Assembly: GCA_020352895.1 (NCBI GenBank)
Contig: CP070685.1
Span: 2,428,847 to 2,465,573 of the forward strand
Direction of reading: 5' to 3'
Length of the DNA stretch: 36,727 nt
Source of the DNA: Phycisphaerales bacterium
GTDB taxonomy: Bacteria > Planctomycetota > Phycisphaerae > UBA1845 > G020352895
The position numbers and the translations under genes are program-made. Numbering within the stretch: the stretch's first letter is position 1; every line of letters starts with the position of its first letter. The notes under the pieces are model-generated. The model ran no database searches, was not told where the DNA came from, and saw nothing but the letters and a program-made list of their open reading frames with translations. Positions 16,958 through 27,982 of the stretch are shown one piece after another.

Positions 16958-18580
16958 TTAGCGGTCCGACAGGTGCTTCTCGGCTGCGTCTACCAGCCGC
17001 TTGGGCATGCCCAAACGCTGCGCGATCGCCAGAGCGTTGCTGTTGCCCGCCTCGCCGATGCGCAGCCGATACGTGGGCATCAAGGTCTCCAGATCGAACT
17101 CCACGCTGGCGTTCTCAACCCTCGTGTGCGTGTGAGCCCGGCTCTTCAGGACGCCCAGGTGCGTCGTGATGATCGCCCGGCACCCAATCTGTAGAAGCTC
17201 GTCCATGACCGCCCGACCTATGGCCGCGCCCTCGTCTGGATCGGTCCCGGCGCCAAGCTCGTCGATCAACACCAGCGTACGGGGCGTCGAACGACGCAAC
17301 GTCTCCAGCACGTACCCCAGGTGCGAGCTGAATGTGCTCAGCGACTGCTGCAGGCTCTGCTCGTCTCCCACGTCCATCAGGACGTCGTCAAATACCGGCA
17401 TCTTGCAGCCGGGGGCCGCAGGGATGGGCAGGCCCGATTGGTGCATGGCCGCCATCAGCCCCACCGTCTTGAGGGTCACGGTCTTGCCGCCCGTATTAGG
17501 CCCCGTTACCACCAGAAGGTCGAAGTCATCGCCCACCCGAATGTCGATAGGTACCACCCGCTCGAAGCGGGGCTCCGGCCGCCCAATCGCCGCCCGTCCC
17601 TGCCCCTCTTGGTCCTCCGTGGGCTCCTCCGCCCGCCGGTCAGGCATGGTCAGCAGGATCGGGTGGCGGGCCTCCCGCAGCCGAATCTGCTGCTCATCGA
17701 TCAGGTCGGCCACCTCCAATCTCAGATGCCGCGCCATCCGTACCTTCGCCCCGATCAGGTCCAGCACCGCCAGGGCGTTCAGCGTCTCCAGGATCGTCTC
17801 CCGGTTCAGATGAATCAGTTGGGTGAGCTGCCACAGCACCCGCGTAATCTCCTCGTGCTCCTCATATCGCAGCTTGATGATCTGATTGTTCAACTGCACC
17901 ACCGGCGCGGGCTCGATGAACAGTGTGGCCCCGCTGTCGCTGCTGCGGTGAATGATGCCCTGGATACGACCCCGGTGCTCAGCCTTCAACGGGAGCACCG
18001 TGCGGTCGTTGTGGAAGGTCGCGTTGGGATACTGAAGGATCTTCTGGATCTGCGGGCTGTGCAATAACTTGGTGATTACCTCGCCGATGGAGTCCTTGGC
18101 CCTGATGATCTGGCCGCGGATCCGGGCCAGCCTCGCCGTGGCCTCGTCCCGCACGTGTCCGCGGGCATCCACGGCCTCACTGATCTGCTGGGCAATGCTC
18201 AGAAAGTCCCCCACACGCTCCCCGAGATGCCGCAAGCGCCCGGCCTCTTCCGGTAGGGCGTCCAACCAGGCGCGCACATGATGAGTGCCCTGCAACGTCT
18301 CGGCGATCTGCGCGAAGACCTCCGGCTCCAACCTGGTCGGAGGAACGGCGGCGCGCACCTCCGGCCGCACGTCGCGAATCCCTGCGAACGGCGGCAGCCC
18401 CATGCTCTTTTCAACCGCCAGCATTTCTCGGACCTGCTCGAGCCACGCCAGAATCTGACCCGCGCCGTGCGCAGGGCGCACCTGCAGCGCCAGGCCGCGC
18501 CCCAGACCGCTGGCGGCATACCCGGCCAATAACTCCGTGATGCGCTCGAACTCCAGCTTGTCCAGCGTGTGCGCGTTCAT
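16958..18580 (-). CDS. mutS2: MutS2-like ATPase, truncated by in-frame stop
   Basis: MutS2 family ATPase, linked in bacteria to suppression of homologous recombination and rescue of collided ribosomes. It has 540 residues from ATG 18580; a TTG two codons earlier is unlikely. The N-terminal clamp/core region occupies about 1-330. The ATPase domain has Walker A GPNTGGKT near 358-365 and Walker B LVLIDELGAGTDP near 440, followed by ITTHLGVLKS. It ends at GMPKRLVDAAEKHLSDR and then TAA, just where the family normally continues into a coiled coil. The same frame stays open for 111 more codons after TAA. Intact MutS2 proteins are about 780 residues with a C-terminal Smr domain; even with readthrough this would be only ~652 and lack Smr. 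Confidence 0.9.
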   Translation of the reverse strand: MNAHTLDKLEFERITELLAGYAASGLGRGLALQVRPAHGAGQILAWLEQVREMLAVEKSMGLPPFAGIRDVRPEVRAAVPPTRLEPEVFAQIAETLQGTHHVRAWLDALPEEAGRLRHLGERVGDFLSIAQQISEAVDARGHVRDEATARLARIRGQIIRAKDSIGEVITKLLHSPQIQKILQYPNATFHNDRTVLPLKAEHRGRIQGIIHRSSDSGATLFIEPAPVVQLNNQIIKLRYEEHEEITRVLWQLTQLIHLNRETILETLNALAVLDLIGAKVRMARHLRLEVADLIDEQQIRLREARHPILLTMPDRRAEEPTEDQEGQGRAAIGRPEPRFERVVPIDIRVGDDFDLLVVTGPNTGGKTVTLKTVGLMAAMHQSGLPIPAAPGCKMPVFDDVLMDVGDEQSLQQSLSTFSSHLGYVLETLRRSTPRTLVLIDELGAGTDPDEGAAIGRAVMDELLQIGCRAIITTHLGVLKSRAHTHTRVENASVEFDLETLMPTYRLRIGEAGNSNALAIAQRLGMPKRLVDAAEKHLSDR

Positions 18581-18727: not shown

Positions 18728-19948
<1,221 letters not shown>

Positions 19949-20081
19949 GACCATTTGAGCCTGCCGCAGCCTCTCGTCTCAAGCTGCCGAAACTTCACCC
20001 GCCCGGCCGATTCTGGTAAGTAGACACATTCGTGCGCCCGCTCGGCGCGGCGCGCCCAGCCATGACAGCGGAGCCTGCTGA

Positions 20082-22963: not shown

Positions 22964-23149
22964 ATGCTCCCGGTCAAGAAAATATCAAAATCGCGCACAC
23001 GGACTCGTCGCGCGCATCACGCGCTCAAGCCCGCTCGCATGGCATCCTGCCCCAAATGCGGGAACCGAAAGCTCCCCCATGCCGCCTGTGAGAACTGCGG
23101 TTACGTCTCCTCGAAGGTTGCTCTGCCCGTCGAGACTGAGGAATCGTGA
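22964..23149 (+). CDS. rpmF: 50S ribosomal protein L32
   Basis: Small zinc-ribbon protein of the large ribosomal subunit. It has 61 residues with a basic N-terminus (PVKKISKSRTRTRRAHH) and the zinc knuckle CPKCGN...CENCGY (about residues 29-47). The tail is short and acidic. GGAGGAG lies 7 bases before ATG 22964. Its stop overlaps the GTG start of plsX by four bases (GTGA), the classic rpmF-plsX-fab arrangement that couples ribosome and membrane-lipid synthesis in many bacteria. Confidence 0.93.
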   Translation: MLPVKKISKSRTRTRRAHHALKPARMASCPKCGNRKLPHAACENCGYVSSKVALPVETEES

Positions 23150-24150
23150 AGCGGATCAACGTCGCCGTCGACGCTATGGGGGGAGACAACGCCCCTCGAG
23201 AGATCGTGCGCGGTGCCGTCGCGGCCCTGGATCTTCCCTCTCAACCCGAGCTGACTTTTTTCGGCGACGAAGAAACCGTCCGAGCCGAGTTGGAAGAAAC
23301 CGGCTGCAACTCGGACCGCGTCCATGTGGTGCACACCACACAGGTCATCGGCATGGCCGAATTGCCCGTCGAAGCCCTTCGTCGCAAGCGCGATTCGTCC
23401 ATCATGCAGATCGTGCTGCGGTGCGCGTCCGGTGAGTTCGACGGCTGCATCAGCGCGGGGAATACGGGTGCCTTCGCGGCCGCCGCCCAGCTCAAACTCG
23501 GTTTGTTGGAGGGCGTCAGCCGCAGCGGGATTGCCGTGGTGATCCCGTCCTTCCACGGTCCCTTGACGGTCTGTGATGTGGGGGCAAACGTTTCGGCCAA
23601 GCCGCACCATCTCAAGGACTACGGCGTGATGGCCAGCGCCTATGCCAGGGAAGTCGTCGGCGTGAAGGAGCCGCGGGTCGGATTGCTCTCGATTGGGGAG
23701 GAAGATGCCAAAGGCAACGAACTGGTCAAAGAAACCTGGCAGATGCTCAAGGAGACCGAAGGCATCCGCTTCATCGGCAACGTCGAGGGCCGGGCCCTTT
23801 TCAGCGGCGAATGTGACGTGGCCGTCTGTGACGGCTTTGTCGGCAACGTCGTGCTCAAACTGACCGAAGGCCTCGCCGAGGGCCTCCTCCAGACCATCGC
23901 TCGCGATATCGCCGCCCGCAGCGCGGATTTGGCCGAACGCTTCAAGCCCGTCGTCAAGGCCCTCTGGGACAGACATGACTACTCCGAGTACGGCGGTGCT
24001 CCGTTGCTCGGCGTCAACGGCGTCGTTATCATCTGCCATGGGCGCAGCGACCGGAGGGCCATCCGAAACGCCGTCCGCGTCGTCTGCGAGTTTGTAGCCC
24101 ATGACCTCAACGCCAAGTTCGTCCAATGCTTGGCGACCAGCCAGAGATAA
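23146..24150 (+). CDS. plsX: Phosphate acyltransferase PlsX
   Basis: Converts acyl-ACP and phosphate to acyl-phosphate, the donor for PlsY in phospholipid synthesis; a peripheral membrane enzyme. It has 334 residues with the family N-terminus INVAVDAMGGDNAPREIV, the central SAGNTGAFAAAA motif near residue 104, and LLSIGEEDAKGN and ALFSGECDVAVCDGFVGNVV in the C-terminal half. The GTG start overlaps the rpmF stop, so no separate ribosome site is needed. Next in the cluster is fabH, five bases after the plsX stop. Confidence 0.97.
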   Translation: MKRINVAVDAMGGDNAPREIVRGAVAALDLPSQPELTFFGDEETVRAELEETGCNSDRVHVVHTTQVIGMAELPVEALRRKRDSSIMQIVLRCASGEFDGCISAGNTGAFAAAAQLKLGLLEGVSRSGIAVVIPSFHGPLTVCDVGANVSAKPHHLKDYGVMASAYAREVVGVKEPRVGLLSIGEEDAKGNELVKETWQMLKETEGIRFIGNVEGRALFSGECDVAVCDGFVGNVVLKLTEGLAEGLLQTIARDIAARSADLAERFKPVVKALWDRHDYSEYGGAPLLGVNGVVIICHGRSDRRAIRNAVRVVCEFVAHDLNAKFVQCLATSQR

Positions 24151-24155
24151 GCCGT

Positions 24156-25148
24156 ATGTATAAACCGCTGCGCATGACCATTCGGGGCACTGGTCACGCC
24201 CTGCCCCAGAGGGTGGTGACCAATCAGGAGCTCGCTCGGACGCTGGACACCTCCCACGAATGGATCGTCAGCCGCTCCGGCATCCGCGAACGCAGGATCA
24301 TCGCCGGTGGCGAGTGCACGGCCTCGATGGCGGTCGAGGCGTCGCGCAAGGCCATGGAGGCTGCAAGCGTCGCCAAAGACGAGATCGACATGATCATCTG
24401 CGGCACCATTACGCCCGATCTGCGTCTCCCGGCCACCGCCTGCCTGGTCCAACGAGAGCTGGACATGGGCCACGTACCGGCCTTCGACATCAACGTGGCC
24501 TGCTGCGGCTTTCTCTACGGCATGTTCATCGCCGCGCACTTCGTGGATAAGGGCACCTACAACAACGTCTTGGTGGTCGCGTCGGACGCCATGACCAGCA
24601 TGGCCGACCCGGATGATCGCGCCACCTATGTACTCTTCGGAGATGGAGCCGGGGCTGCGGTGATCGGCCGTCAGCAGGAGCCCGGCCAGGAGCTCATTTA
24701 CAGCGCCCTGTACGCCGATGGTCAGGGGGCCAAGCTGATCTGGGTTCCGGGCGGGGGAGCGGTGATGCCGGTGTCCCAGACCGTGCTGGACGAGCGGCTG
24801 CACTTCGTCAAGATGAAAGGGCGCGAAGTCTACAAGTTCGCCGTCACTGAAATGCAGAATGCCATCGCCGAAGGCTTCGAGAAGACGAGCCTGACCGTTG
24901 ATGACGTGGCCATGGTCATTCCGCACCAGTCTAATCTGCGCATCATTGAGTCGGCACGCGAGAAGCTCGGGATTCCCACCGAGAAGATGTATGTAAACAT
25001 CGATCGCGTGGGGAACACTTCGGCGGCCTCCGTGCCCATTTGCCTGGATGAGTTGATCAGAGCCGGCCGGCTGAAGAGGGGTGATGTCGTCCTGAGCGTC
25101 GCTTTTGGGGCCGGACTCACCTGGGCTACGTCCGTCTTCCGCTTGTGA
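24156..25148 (+). CDS. fabH: 3-oxoacyl-ACP synthase III
   Basis: Condenses acetyl-CoA with malonyl-ACP to start fatty acid synthesis. It has 330 residues in a thiolase fold. The catalytic triad is visible: the nucleophile C116 in NVACCGF, the histidine in PHQSNLRI and the asparagine in GNTSAAS. A second cysteine, C117, takes the place of the usual Ser or Ala. The N-terminal segment TSHEWIVSRSGIRERR is characteristic. ATG 24156, five bases after the plsX stop, is chosen; the frame is open upstream inside plsX, and an ATG six codons later (24174) is also possible. Confidence 0.95.
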   Translation: MYKPLRMTIRGTGHALPQRVVTNQELARTLDTSHEWIVSRSGIRERRIIAGGECTASMAVEASRKAMEAASVAKDEIDMIICGTITPDLRLPATACLVQRELDMGHVPAFDINVACCGFLYGMFIAAHFVDKGTYNNVLVVASDAMTSMADPDDRATYVLFGDGAGAAVIGRQQEPGQELIYSALYADGQGAKLIWVPGGGAVMPVSQTVLDERLHFVKMKGREVYKFAVTEMQNAIAEGFEKTSLTVDDVAMVIPHQSNLRIIESAREKLGIPTEKMYVNIDRVGNTSAASVPICLDELIRAGRLKRGDVVLSVAFGAGLTWATSVFRL

Positions 25149-25188: not shown

Positions 25189-26160
25189 ATGAGCCAAGCC
25201 GCCGAAGTCGCCTATCTGTTCACCGGCCAGGGAGCCCAGTCGTCCGGCATGGGACAGGCTCTGCTCGAGAAGTATCCCCAGGTGCGTGAGTTGTTCGACC
25301 AGGCCGACGATGTGGTCGGCTTCGGTCTGACCCAGGCCTGCTGCGAAGGCGGCCCGGACGTGCTCGAGCAGACTGAGATTCAACAGCCGGCCATCTTTCT
25401 GGTTAGTGCCGCCTACCTGAAGGTCTTCGCCGAGCGCTGCGGAGCGGCCTTCCCTATGGGAGCCGCCAGCGGGCTGAGCCTGGGCGAATACACCGCCTTG
25501 TATGCGGCCGGGGCCGTCGATTTCGCCGGTGCTCTGAACCTCGTTCGGCATCGCGGCCGCCTCATGCAGGAGGCCGGGGTCCGGCACCCCGGCGGGCTGG
25601 TTTGCCTGATGAACATGGATTTGCCCGCGGCAGAGACGCTCTGCGAGAAAGCTGCCGAGGGCGGCGTCCTGACCCCCGCCAATCTCAACTGCCCTGGACA
25701 GATCGTGGTCTCTGGCGACAAGGCGGCCTGCACACGCGCCCTGGAGCTGGCTAGCGAGTTTGGCGGCCGGGGAGTGGAACTCCCCGTTTCAGGGGCCTTC
25801 CATTCGCCCCTCATGGCCGAGGCGGCCGAGGAACTGAAGCACCACCTTGAGGCTACGCCGTTTGAAGCCCCGGCCGTTCCCGTGTATAGCAACGTCACTG
25901 GCCAGCCACACTCGGACCCGGCCGGTATTCGCGACCTGCTGTACCGCCAGATGATCAGCCCTGTGCGGTGGCAGACCTGTGTGGAGAACTTGGCGGCGGC
26001 CGGCTACACGCGGAGCGTCGAAGTGGGCCCCGGCAAAGTGATCTCCGGGCTGCTCCGCCGGATCGACCGCTCGCTGGAATGTCGGAATATCGGCAGCCCT
26101 GAAGCCTTAGAGAAGGCCGCTGGCGAGTGCGACCCCACCGCGAGAGAGCTGGCCTCATGA
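25189..26160 (+). CDS. fabD: Malonyl-CoA:ACP transacylase
   Basis: Moves malonyl from CoA to ACP for chain elongation. It has 323 residues with the N-terminal FTGQGAQ (11-17), the nucleophile S97 in GLSLGEY, and the catalytic H205 in SGAFHSPLM. The usual GHSLGE motif has Leu in place of His, a variant also known in active acyltransferases. ATG 25189 has AGGA close upstream, and the preceding 28 open codons overlap the fabH end. Its TGA stop overlaps the ATG of a fabG remnant (ATGA), the coupling normally seen for fabD-fabG. Confidence 0.95.
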   Translation: MSQAAEVAYLFTGQGAQSSGMGQALLEKYPQVRELFDQADDVVGFGLTQACCEGGPDVLEQTEIQQPAIFLVSAAYLKVFAERCGAAFPMGAASGLSLGEYTALYAAGAVDFAGALNLVRHRGRLMQEAGVRHPGGLVCLMNMDLPAAETLCEKAAEGGVLTPANLNCPGQIVVSGDKAACTRALELASEFGGRGVELPVSGAFHSPLMAEAAEELKHHLEATPFEAPAVPVYSNVTGQPHSDPAGIRDLLYRQMISPVRWQTCVENLAAAGYTRSVEVGPGKVISGLLRRIDRSLECRNIGSPEALEKAAGECDPTARELAS

Positions 26161-26258
26161 TGCCTGCAGAGCAGGTCGGCCTGGCGACCGGCGGCTCACG
26201 CGGCATCGGCAGGAGTATCTGTCTGCACTTGACCGTGGACGGGGGCTTGAATATGTAG
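26157..26258 (+). pseudogene. fabG: fabG remnant: N- and C-terminal ends joined in frame
   Basis: A 33-codon open frame from ATG 26157 to TAG 26256-26258, overlapping the fabD stop as fabG does in fab operons. It reads VGLATGGSRGIGRSICLHL, the glycine-rich NADPH-binding start of 3-oxoacyl-ACP reductase, and continues at once with TVDGGLNM, the typical end of that enzyme. FabG is normally about 245 residues, so ~210 interior codons are gone: no catalytic Ser/Tyr/Lys remain. The joint keeps the frame open. It cannot be a working reductase. It may be a real deletion relic or an assembly collapse; the neighbouring genes are intact. Confidence 0.82.
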
Positions 26259-26334: not shown

Positions 26335-26363
26335 TTGAAGGGAATGTGGACGGTGGGTATAGT
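26335..26363 (+). promoter_or_regulatory. Sigma70-type promoter for acpP
   Basis: TTGAAG (26335-26340) is followed after 17 bases by TATAGT (26358-26363), 4/6 and 5/6 consensus matches and one of the best promoters in the window. Predicted start near 26370, leader of ~44 bases containing GGAGG at 26401. Upstream, GCCGCCGGCGGC (26297-26308) is a perfect 12-base palindrome of unknown role. Confidence 0.6.
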
Positions 26364-26413
26364 ACGCCGCACGATGCTACTGTACTCACTCACGGGTTTT
26401 GGAGGATCTGTGC

Positions 26414-26671
26414 GTGCTTAGCCAAGACGAAATCCAAGACAAGGTCATATCGATTGTCAGCGAGCAGATGGGCGTGGACAAAGCCGAGATCAACAAGGAT
26501 ACGTCTTTCGTCAACGATCTGAACGCTGACTCCCTCGACACGGTCGAGCTGGTGATGGAGTTTGAGGACGAGTTTGAGATGAGCATTCCGGATGAGGAGG
26601 CGGAGCAGATCCAGACCGTCGGCCAGGCGGTGGAGTACATTGTCGCTCACGCCAACAAGTCCAGGAGCTGA
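26414..26671 (+). CDS. acpP: Acyl carrier protein
   Basis: Carries the growing acyl chain on a phosphopantetheine arm. It has 85 residues, acidic and helical, with the attachment serine S40 in [14 protein letters not shown]. The GTG start at 26414 is preferred: GGAGG (26401-26405) lies 8 bases before it, and family N-termini begin at about [10 protein letters not shown]. The TTG at 26399, five codons earlier, precedes the ribosome site and is unlikely. It sits between the fabG remnant and fabF, the usual order. Confidence 0.95.
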
Positions 26672-26737: not shown

Positions 26738-27982
26738 ATGACGGATAGGCGCCGCGTAGTAGTCACCGGAATGGGCGCTGTCACCGCGCTCGGCGAAACC
26801 ACGGAGGCGCTATGGGATGGCGTCCTCGCGTGCGACAGCGGCGTCGGTCCGGTCACACGCTTCGACCTGACCGACCATACTGTTCGTATCGGTGGAGAAT
26901 GCACGGACTTCGACCCCGGCAAGTACATTGATCGCAAGGCAGCCAAGCGGTTGGACCGGTTCGCCCAGTTCGCCATGGTCGCCGCCGACTCCGCTGCGAA
27001 GGACAGCGGGCTTGATTTCCAGTCCCTGGACGGCAAGACCACCGGCGTCATCATCGGATCCGGCATCGGCGGGCTGTGGGAACTCGAGGAACAGCACCTG
27101 CGCCTGGTCCAGAAGGGCCCGAAGAAGCTCTCCGCCTTCACCATCCCCAAGCTCATGGTCAACGCAGCCACGGGGAACATCTCCATGGCCTACAACGCCC
27201 AGGGGCCCAGCACGGCCGTGGCCACGGCTTGTGCGTCCGCCACACATGCCATGGGCGATGCCCTCCGGGCCATCCAACACGGCTACGCCGAGGTGGTCTT
27301 CACGGGCGGGTCGGAGGCCGCCCTCACTCCCTTGGGGTTAGCCGCCTTTGCCGCCATGAAGGCGTTGTCCACGCGGAACGACGACCCGACTCACGCCAGT
27401 CGCCCCTTCGATCGCGACCGCGACGGCTTCGTGCTGGGTGAGGGAGCCGGCCTGCTCATCTTCGAAGAGCTGGAACATGCCAAAGCCCGGGGGGCTCGAA
27501 TCTACGGGGAGGTCCTAGGCTTCGGCATGAGCGGTGACGCCTCTCACATTACCCAGCCGGCCGAGGACGGTACCGGAGCCGCCCTGGCCATGACCCGGGC
27601 CCTGGAGAACGCAGGCCTCGACCCGGAAGCCATCGACTACGTCAATGCCCATGGAACCGCCACGATCCTTGGCGACATCGCCGAGACGATCGCCATCAAG
27701 CGCGTATTCGGGGACCACGCCGACAAGCTGGCTATCAGCAGCACCAAGAGCCAGTTGGGTCATCTGCTGGGTGCCAGTGGGGGGGTCGAGCTGGTGGCCA
27801 CCCTCATGGGCCTCTACCACAATGTGGCTCCGCCCACGGCCAATCTGGACGAGCCGGATCCCCAATGTGATCTGGACTACGTCCCGCACCAGCCACGGGA
27901 CATGCGTATCCGCAGAGCAATCAGCAATTCCTTCGGCTTTGGCGGCCACAACGCCACCATCGTCGTCGGCAAGCTCGACTGA
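26738..27982 (+). CDS. fabF: 3-oxoacyl-ACP synthase II
   Basis: Elongating condensing enzyme of type II fatty acid synthesis. It has 414 residues with the complete active site: C165 in ATACASAT, H305 in NAHGTAT, K337 in STKSQLG and H342 in GHLLGASG. The N-terminal RRVVVTGMGAVTALG is standard. ATG 26738 follows acpP by 66 bases; only a weak AAGG is seen upstream. It is the last gene of the fatty-acid cluster. Confidence 0.97.
   Translation: MTDRRRVVVTGMGAVTALGETTEALWDGVLACDSGVGPVTRFDLTDHTVRIGGECTDFDPGKYIDRKAAKRLDRFAQFAMVAADSAAKDSGLDFQSLDGKTTGVIIGSGIGGLWELEEQHLRLVQKGPKKLSAFTIPKLMVNAATGNISMAYNAQGPSTAVATACASATHAMGDALRAIQHGYAEVVFTGGSEAALTPLGLAAFAAMKALSTRNDDPTHASRPFDRDRDGFVLGEGAGLLIFEELEHAKARGARIYGEVLGFGMSGDASHITQPAEDGTGAALAMTRALENAGLDPEAIDYVNAHGTATILGDIAETIAIKRVFGDHADKLAISSTKSQLGHLLGASGGVELVATLMGLYHNVAPPTANLDEPDPQCDLDYVPHQPRDMRIRRAISNSFGFGGHNATIVVGKLD

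Follow-up and report, generated by a model that had tools for sequence, protein, structure and literature searches.

A 33-codon remnant of fabG in the fab operon of a concatenated planctomycete draft genome

In the genome of a Phycisphaerales bacterium (GenBank assembly GCA_020352895.1, contig CP070685.1), the place of fabG between fabD and acpP is held by a 33-codon reading frame, a remnant without function of what was an ordinary fabG of the operon. We lean towards attributing the join within this remnant to a fault of assembly or consensus, to a chimeric or minor-strain molecule, or to a deletion private to one strain, and not to a feature of the species. The features listed below lie in the window, that is, the whole stretch of 36,727 nucleotides that was analysed, and their coordinates are positions within it.

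16958..16960, reverse strand: in-frame TAA inside mutS2 (mutS2 at 18586-16620, reverse strand)
23146..24150, forward strand: plsX, intact (TIGR00182, 326 bits)
24126..25148, forward strand: fabH, intact (TIGR00747, 373 bits)
25189..26160, forward strand: fabD, malonyl-CoA:ACP transacylase, intact (TIGR00128, 281 bits, over the cut-off)
26157..26258, forward strand: fabG remnant of 33 codons, N-terminal ~25 residues fused in frame to the C-terminal 8 residues of FabG
26226..26237, forward strand: region of the deletion-type join, CAC TTG / ACC GTG, placed by comparison with intact FabGs
26335..26363, forward strand: promoter-like site TTGAAG-17-TATAGT between the stub and acpP (consensus match only; 1 found versus 0.2 expected)
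26399..26671, forward strand: acpP, acyl carrier protein (TIGR00517, 105 bits), with a GTG at about 26414 as the likelier start
26738..27982, forward strand: fabF, intact (TIGR03150, 606 bits)

The stub frame (26157-26258, forward strand; translation MMPAEQVGLATGGSRGIGRSICLHLTVDGGLNM, followed by a stop codon) begins at an ATG that overlaps the fabD stop codon TGA (26158-26160), and another ATG, at 26160, overlaps it too. Residues 5-29 of the query matched the N termini of SDR and FabG proteins (NCBIfam FabL, E=2.3e-4; FabG PRK05653, E=1.1e-3). When compared residue by residue with the intact operonic FabGs of 62 relatives, TGGSRGIGR-I-C-L-x-L and VDGGL-M agreed with the two ends of these proteins, and the N-terminal cofactor motif TGxxxGIG is present as TGGSRGIG at residues 11-18. 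Both natural ends of fabG are found in order and at the orthologous locus. The TGG and DGG motifs are 17 residues apart in the stub and 230-232 residues apart in 60 of the 62 relatives, so 213-215 codons are missing. The original prediction had described an in-frame fabG stub of 33 codons that had lost ~210 codons in one join; the reading frame, the motif spacing and the match of both ends in the alignment to the 62 FabGs bear this out.

The stub shares with the operon copy of FabG (3-oxoacyl-[ACP] reductase; TIGR01830 / PF13561) its place in the operon, the overlap with the fabD stop, the Rossmann start TGGSRGIG and the C-terminal VDGGL-M ending, but it has 33 residues where FabG has ~245 and is without the whole core, most of the nucleotide-binding fold and the catalytic Ser-Tyr-Lys: neither the catalytic Ser nor the Tyr-x-x-x-Lys motif of FabG occurs in its 33 residues. 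As the criterion for membership of the FabG family we used the curated TIGR01830 cut-off of 297.75 bits over ~239 positions. The operon place holds no match to this model and no full-length SDR fold, and only 20-25 residues fit FabG-like models. A frame of just 33 codons might be unrelated to FabG and resemble it by chance; we rejected this reading, to which we give practically no credence, on finding both ends aligned in the expected order, frame and operon position.

Around the stub the cluster runs plsX-fabH-fabD-[stub]-acpP-fabF, and its neighbours are complete, each scoring over the curated cut-off of its NCBIfam model, in agreement with the prediction of an otherwise intact operon. The loss is confined to the body of fabG because the fabG stop lies at a normal distance from the ACP serine motif, 263 bp against a median of 266 bp (n=54 relatives). 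The locus is far shorter than its counterparts: the gap between the FabD and ACP matches is 242 bp here and 819-1424 bp in 79 loci of related planctomycetes, which are those with both fabD and acpP and include some genomes represented twice, from two collections. Comparison with relatives, which the original prediction had itself named as a way in which it could fail, went against it, as fabG is full-length in all the other genomes examined whose locus is unbroken. The relatives compared belong at closest to the same order, and none of the 113 other genomes of the order is a close relative; the nearest, with 71% across acpP-fabF in a DNA comparison, has a full fabG. FabG over the curated cut-off was present in 38 of 40 same-order genomes, 37 of which have it as the operon copy. 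Of the two remaining genomes, fabD was not found in one (G013), and in the other (G039) a 100-N spacer interrupts fabG. No comparable stub was seen in any other genome examined.

It had also been suggested that the stub persists as a leader that is translated, or as a micropeptide, coupling fabD to acpP or serving a role of its own. The frame is open, in frame with both ends of FabG, and its start overlaps the fabD stop; such an overlap, however, can be simply inherited from the parent gene. The short frame is not conserved, since the relatives examined contain no such stub. About 155 bp separate the stub from acpP, with the promoter-like site lying between them, and the spacing is the same as in relatives with a full fabG. 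The normal gap and acpP's own promoter-like site give no sign of a coupling role, and no Rfam family matched the interval as an RNA element. We consider a retained leader or micropeptide very improbable.

If the join is an artefact or a private deletion, as we prefer to think, a single deletion-type event would have removed about 640 bp, from a Leu codon near the start of fabG to a Leu codon near its end, leaving a stub without a function of its own. The event would have taken place while the fragmentary draft, which is 67% complete, was being assembled, or else in a chimeric or minor-strain molecule that entered it. Leu is common in intact FabGs on both sides of the break (53/62 on the 5′ side and 37/62 on the 3′ side), and it is plausible that the break fell at a Leu codon common to the two sides, with microhomology of a few bases, the exact breakpoint being approximated from these proteins and not from the parent sequence. 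The original prediction had regarded an in-frame joint as unusual for decay. A deletion leaves the frame intact by chance 1 time in 3, whether it is artefactual or real, and for this reason the argument is weak. Pseudogenes with internal deletions, and misassemblies of the deletion type, in metagenome-type drafts resemble the stub in their one clean join, their restriction to one assembly and the intact homologues in other genomes checked; nothing specific sets the stub apart from them, and its being in frame is expected in one case out of three.

The state of the assembly argues for an artefactual or private origin. The listing gives the genome as a single contig of 3.60 Mb, 67% complete, but a 400-kb sample contained 60 runs of N, 58 of them exactly 100 N long and the other two cut by the end of the sampled stretch. 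Extrapolated from this sample, the record would consist of an estimated ~540 contigs strung together by 100-N spacers, in places arranged by decreasing length, and the window is exactly one such contig flanked by two spacers. Spacers of 100 N also occur in four other records of the order (G039, G063, G064 and G081). The listing of such records as single contigs does not make them closed genomes. That this is a fragmentary, spacer-joined draft, that the FabD-ACP gap is so much shorter than in the related loci, and that the fabG locus is intact in relatives and in three sibling 100-N drafts (G063, G064 and G081) all favour a faulty or private join. So does the interruption of another conserved gene of this contig: the in-frame TAA of mutS2 falls at a position that is a sense codon in 19/19 relatives, and the frame runs on for 111 codons past it, to a total length like that of relatives lacking an Smr domain.

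Three observations point away from an artefact. The join is unmarked, with no gap or N. The ~110 orthologous pairs compared from the sampled stretches contained no further internal deletion and only one frameshift, which indicates that this assembly is not generally rich in deletions; three flagged apparent truncations were inspected and are not counted as internal deletions. We note an apparent frameshift in a gene resembling that of ribosomal protein S1, close to where its contig ends (G000:C1:2800001-2820000, about 18840-20000 of that stretch). Finally, the retained N-terminal part of the stub carries unusual residues where FabG is nearly invariant (A to G, V to A and L to P), and only one of 58 sequences ranks below it. 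This is suggestive of relaxed constraint on the retained codons, a signal inseparable from the general divergence of the lineage, whose fabD, fabH and plsX are also among the most divergent.

These same observations fit the main alternative, in which the in-frame deletion is fixed in the organism, leaving the operon fabG as a pseudogene, and ketoacyl-ACP reduction is carried out by a FabG encoded in the unassembled third of the genome or by a divergent SDR. The clean join, the low rate of internal deletion elsewhere and the unusual retained residues are consistent with such a loss, as are the missing third of the genome and the presence of a second FabG over the cut-off elsewhere in 16 of the 38 same-order genomes that have one. 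Against it, a loss of the operon copy in this way is seen in no other genome examined, and searches of the assembled two thirds for a canonical FabG (queries PF13561, TIGR01830 and the nearest relative's FabG) returned only other SDRs, the best at 173.8 bits against the TIGR01830 cut-off of 297.75, and none with more than 36% full-length identity to that relative's FabG. The deleted middle of fabG was not found elsewhere in the assembled genome either. The best of the genome's own SDRs, at G000:C1:2367450-2368202, carries SNAMR at the position of the catalytic YxxxK and is probably not a classical reductase. This protein has a FabG-like ending, TGQTIAVDGG. In Ralstonia, the operon fabG is essential despite a second active FabG (PMC4618531), and most FabG-like SDRs are reported to be unable to replace the essential operon copy (PMC4618531, PMC6558427).

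The lack of a second FabG carries little weight by itself, because a third of the genome is absent. A second reductase elsewhere, which the original prediction had said must exist, is only one of two possibilities in a concatenated draft of 67% completeness with no canonical FabG assembled; its proposed search for other copies recovered only the SDRs described above. Were the loss real and the missing third devoid of FabG, it would be lethal. Taken with the assembly evidence, the loss of a normally essential gene from a genome with FabZ- and FabI-type genes and no canonical FabG elsewhere favours an artefactual or private join. We regard a fixed loss as a possible but doubtful explanation. Its more specific form, in which a free-living planctomycete has fixed the in-frame loss of operonic fabG and makes its fatty acids with a divergent, non-canonical SDR (for example that at G000:C1:1495238, or one that is unassembled), seems to us very unlikely.

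The stub is unlikely to represent a new kind of gene, and an assembly fault or a private deletion is the most likely account of it. Records listed as a single contig may be concatenated drafts, and absent genes or clean joins in them call for comparison with reads and relatives before they are taken as biology. If the loss were genuine, a housekeeping ketoacyl-ACP reductase would have been lost from its operon and replaced from elsewhere, which would be a minor variation.
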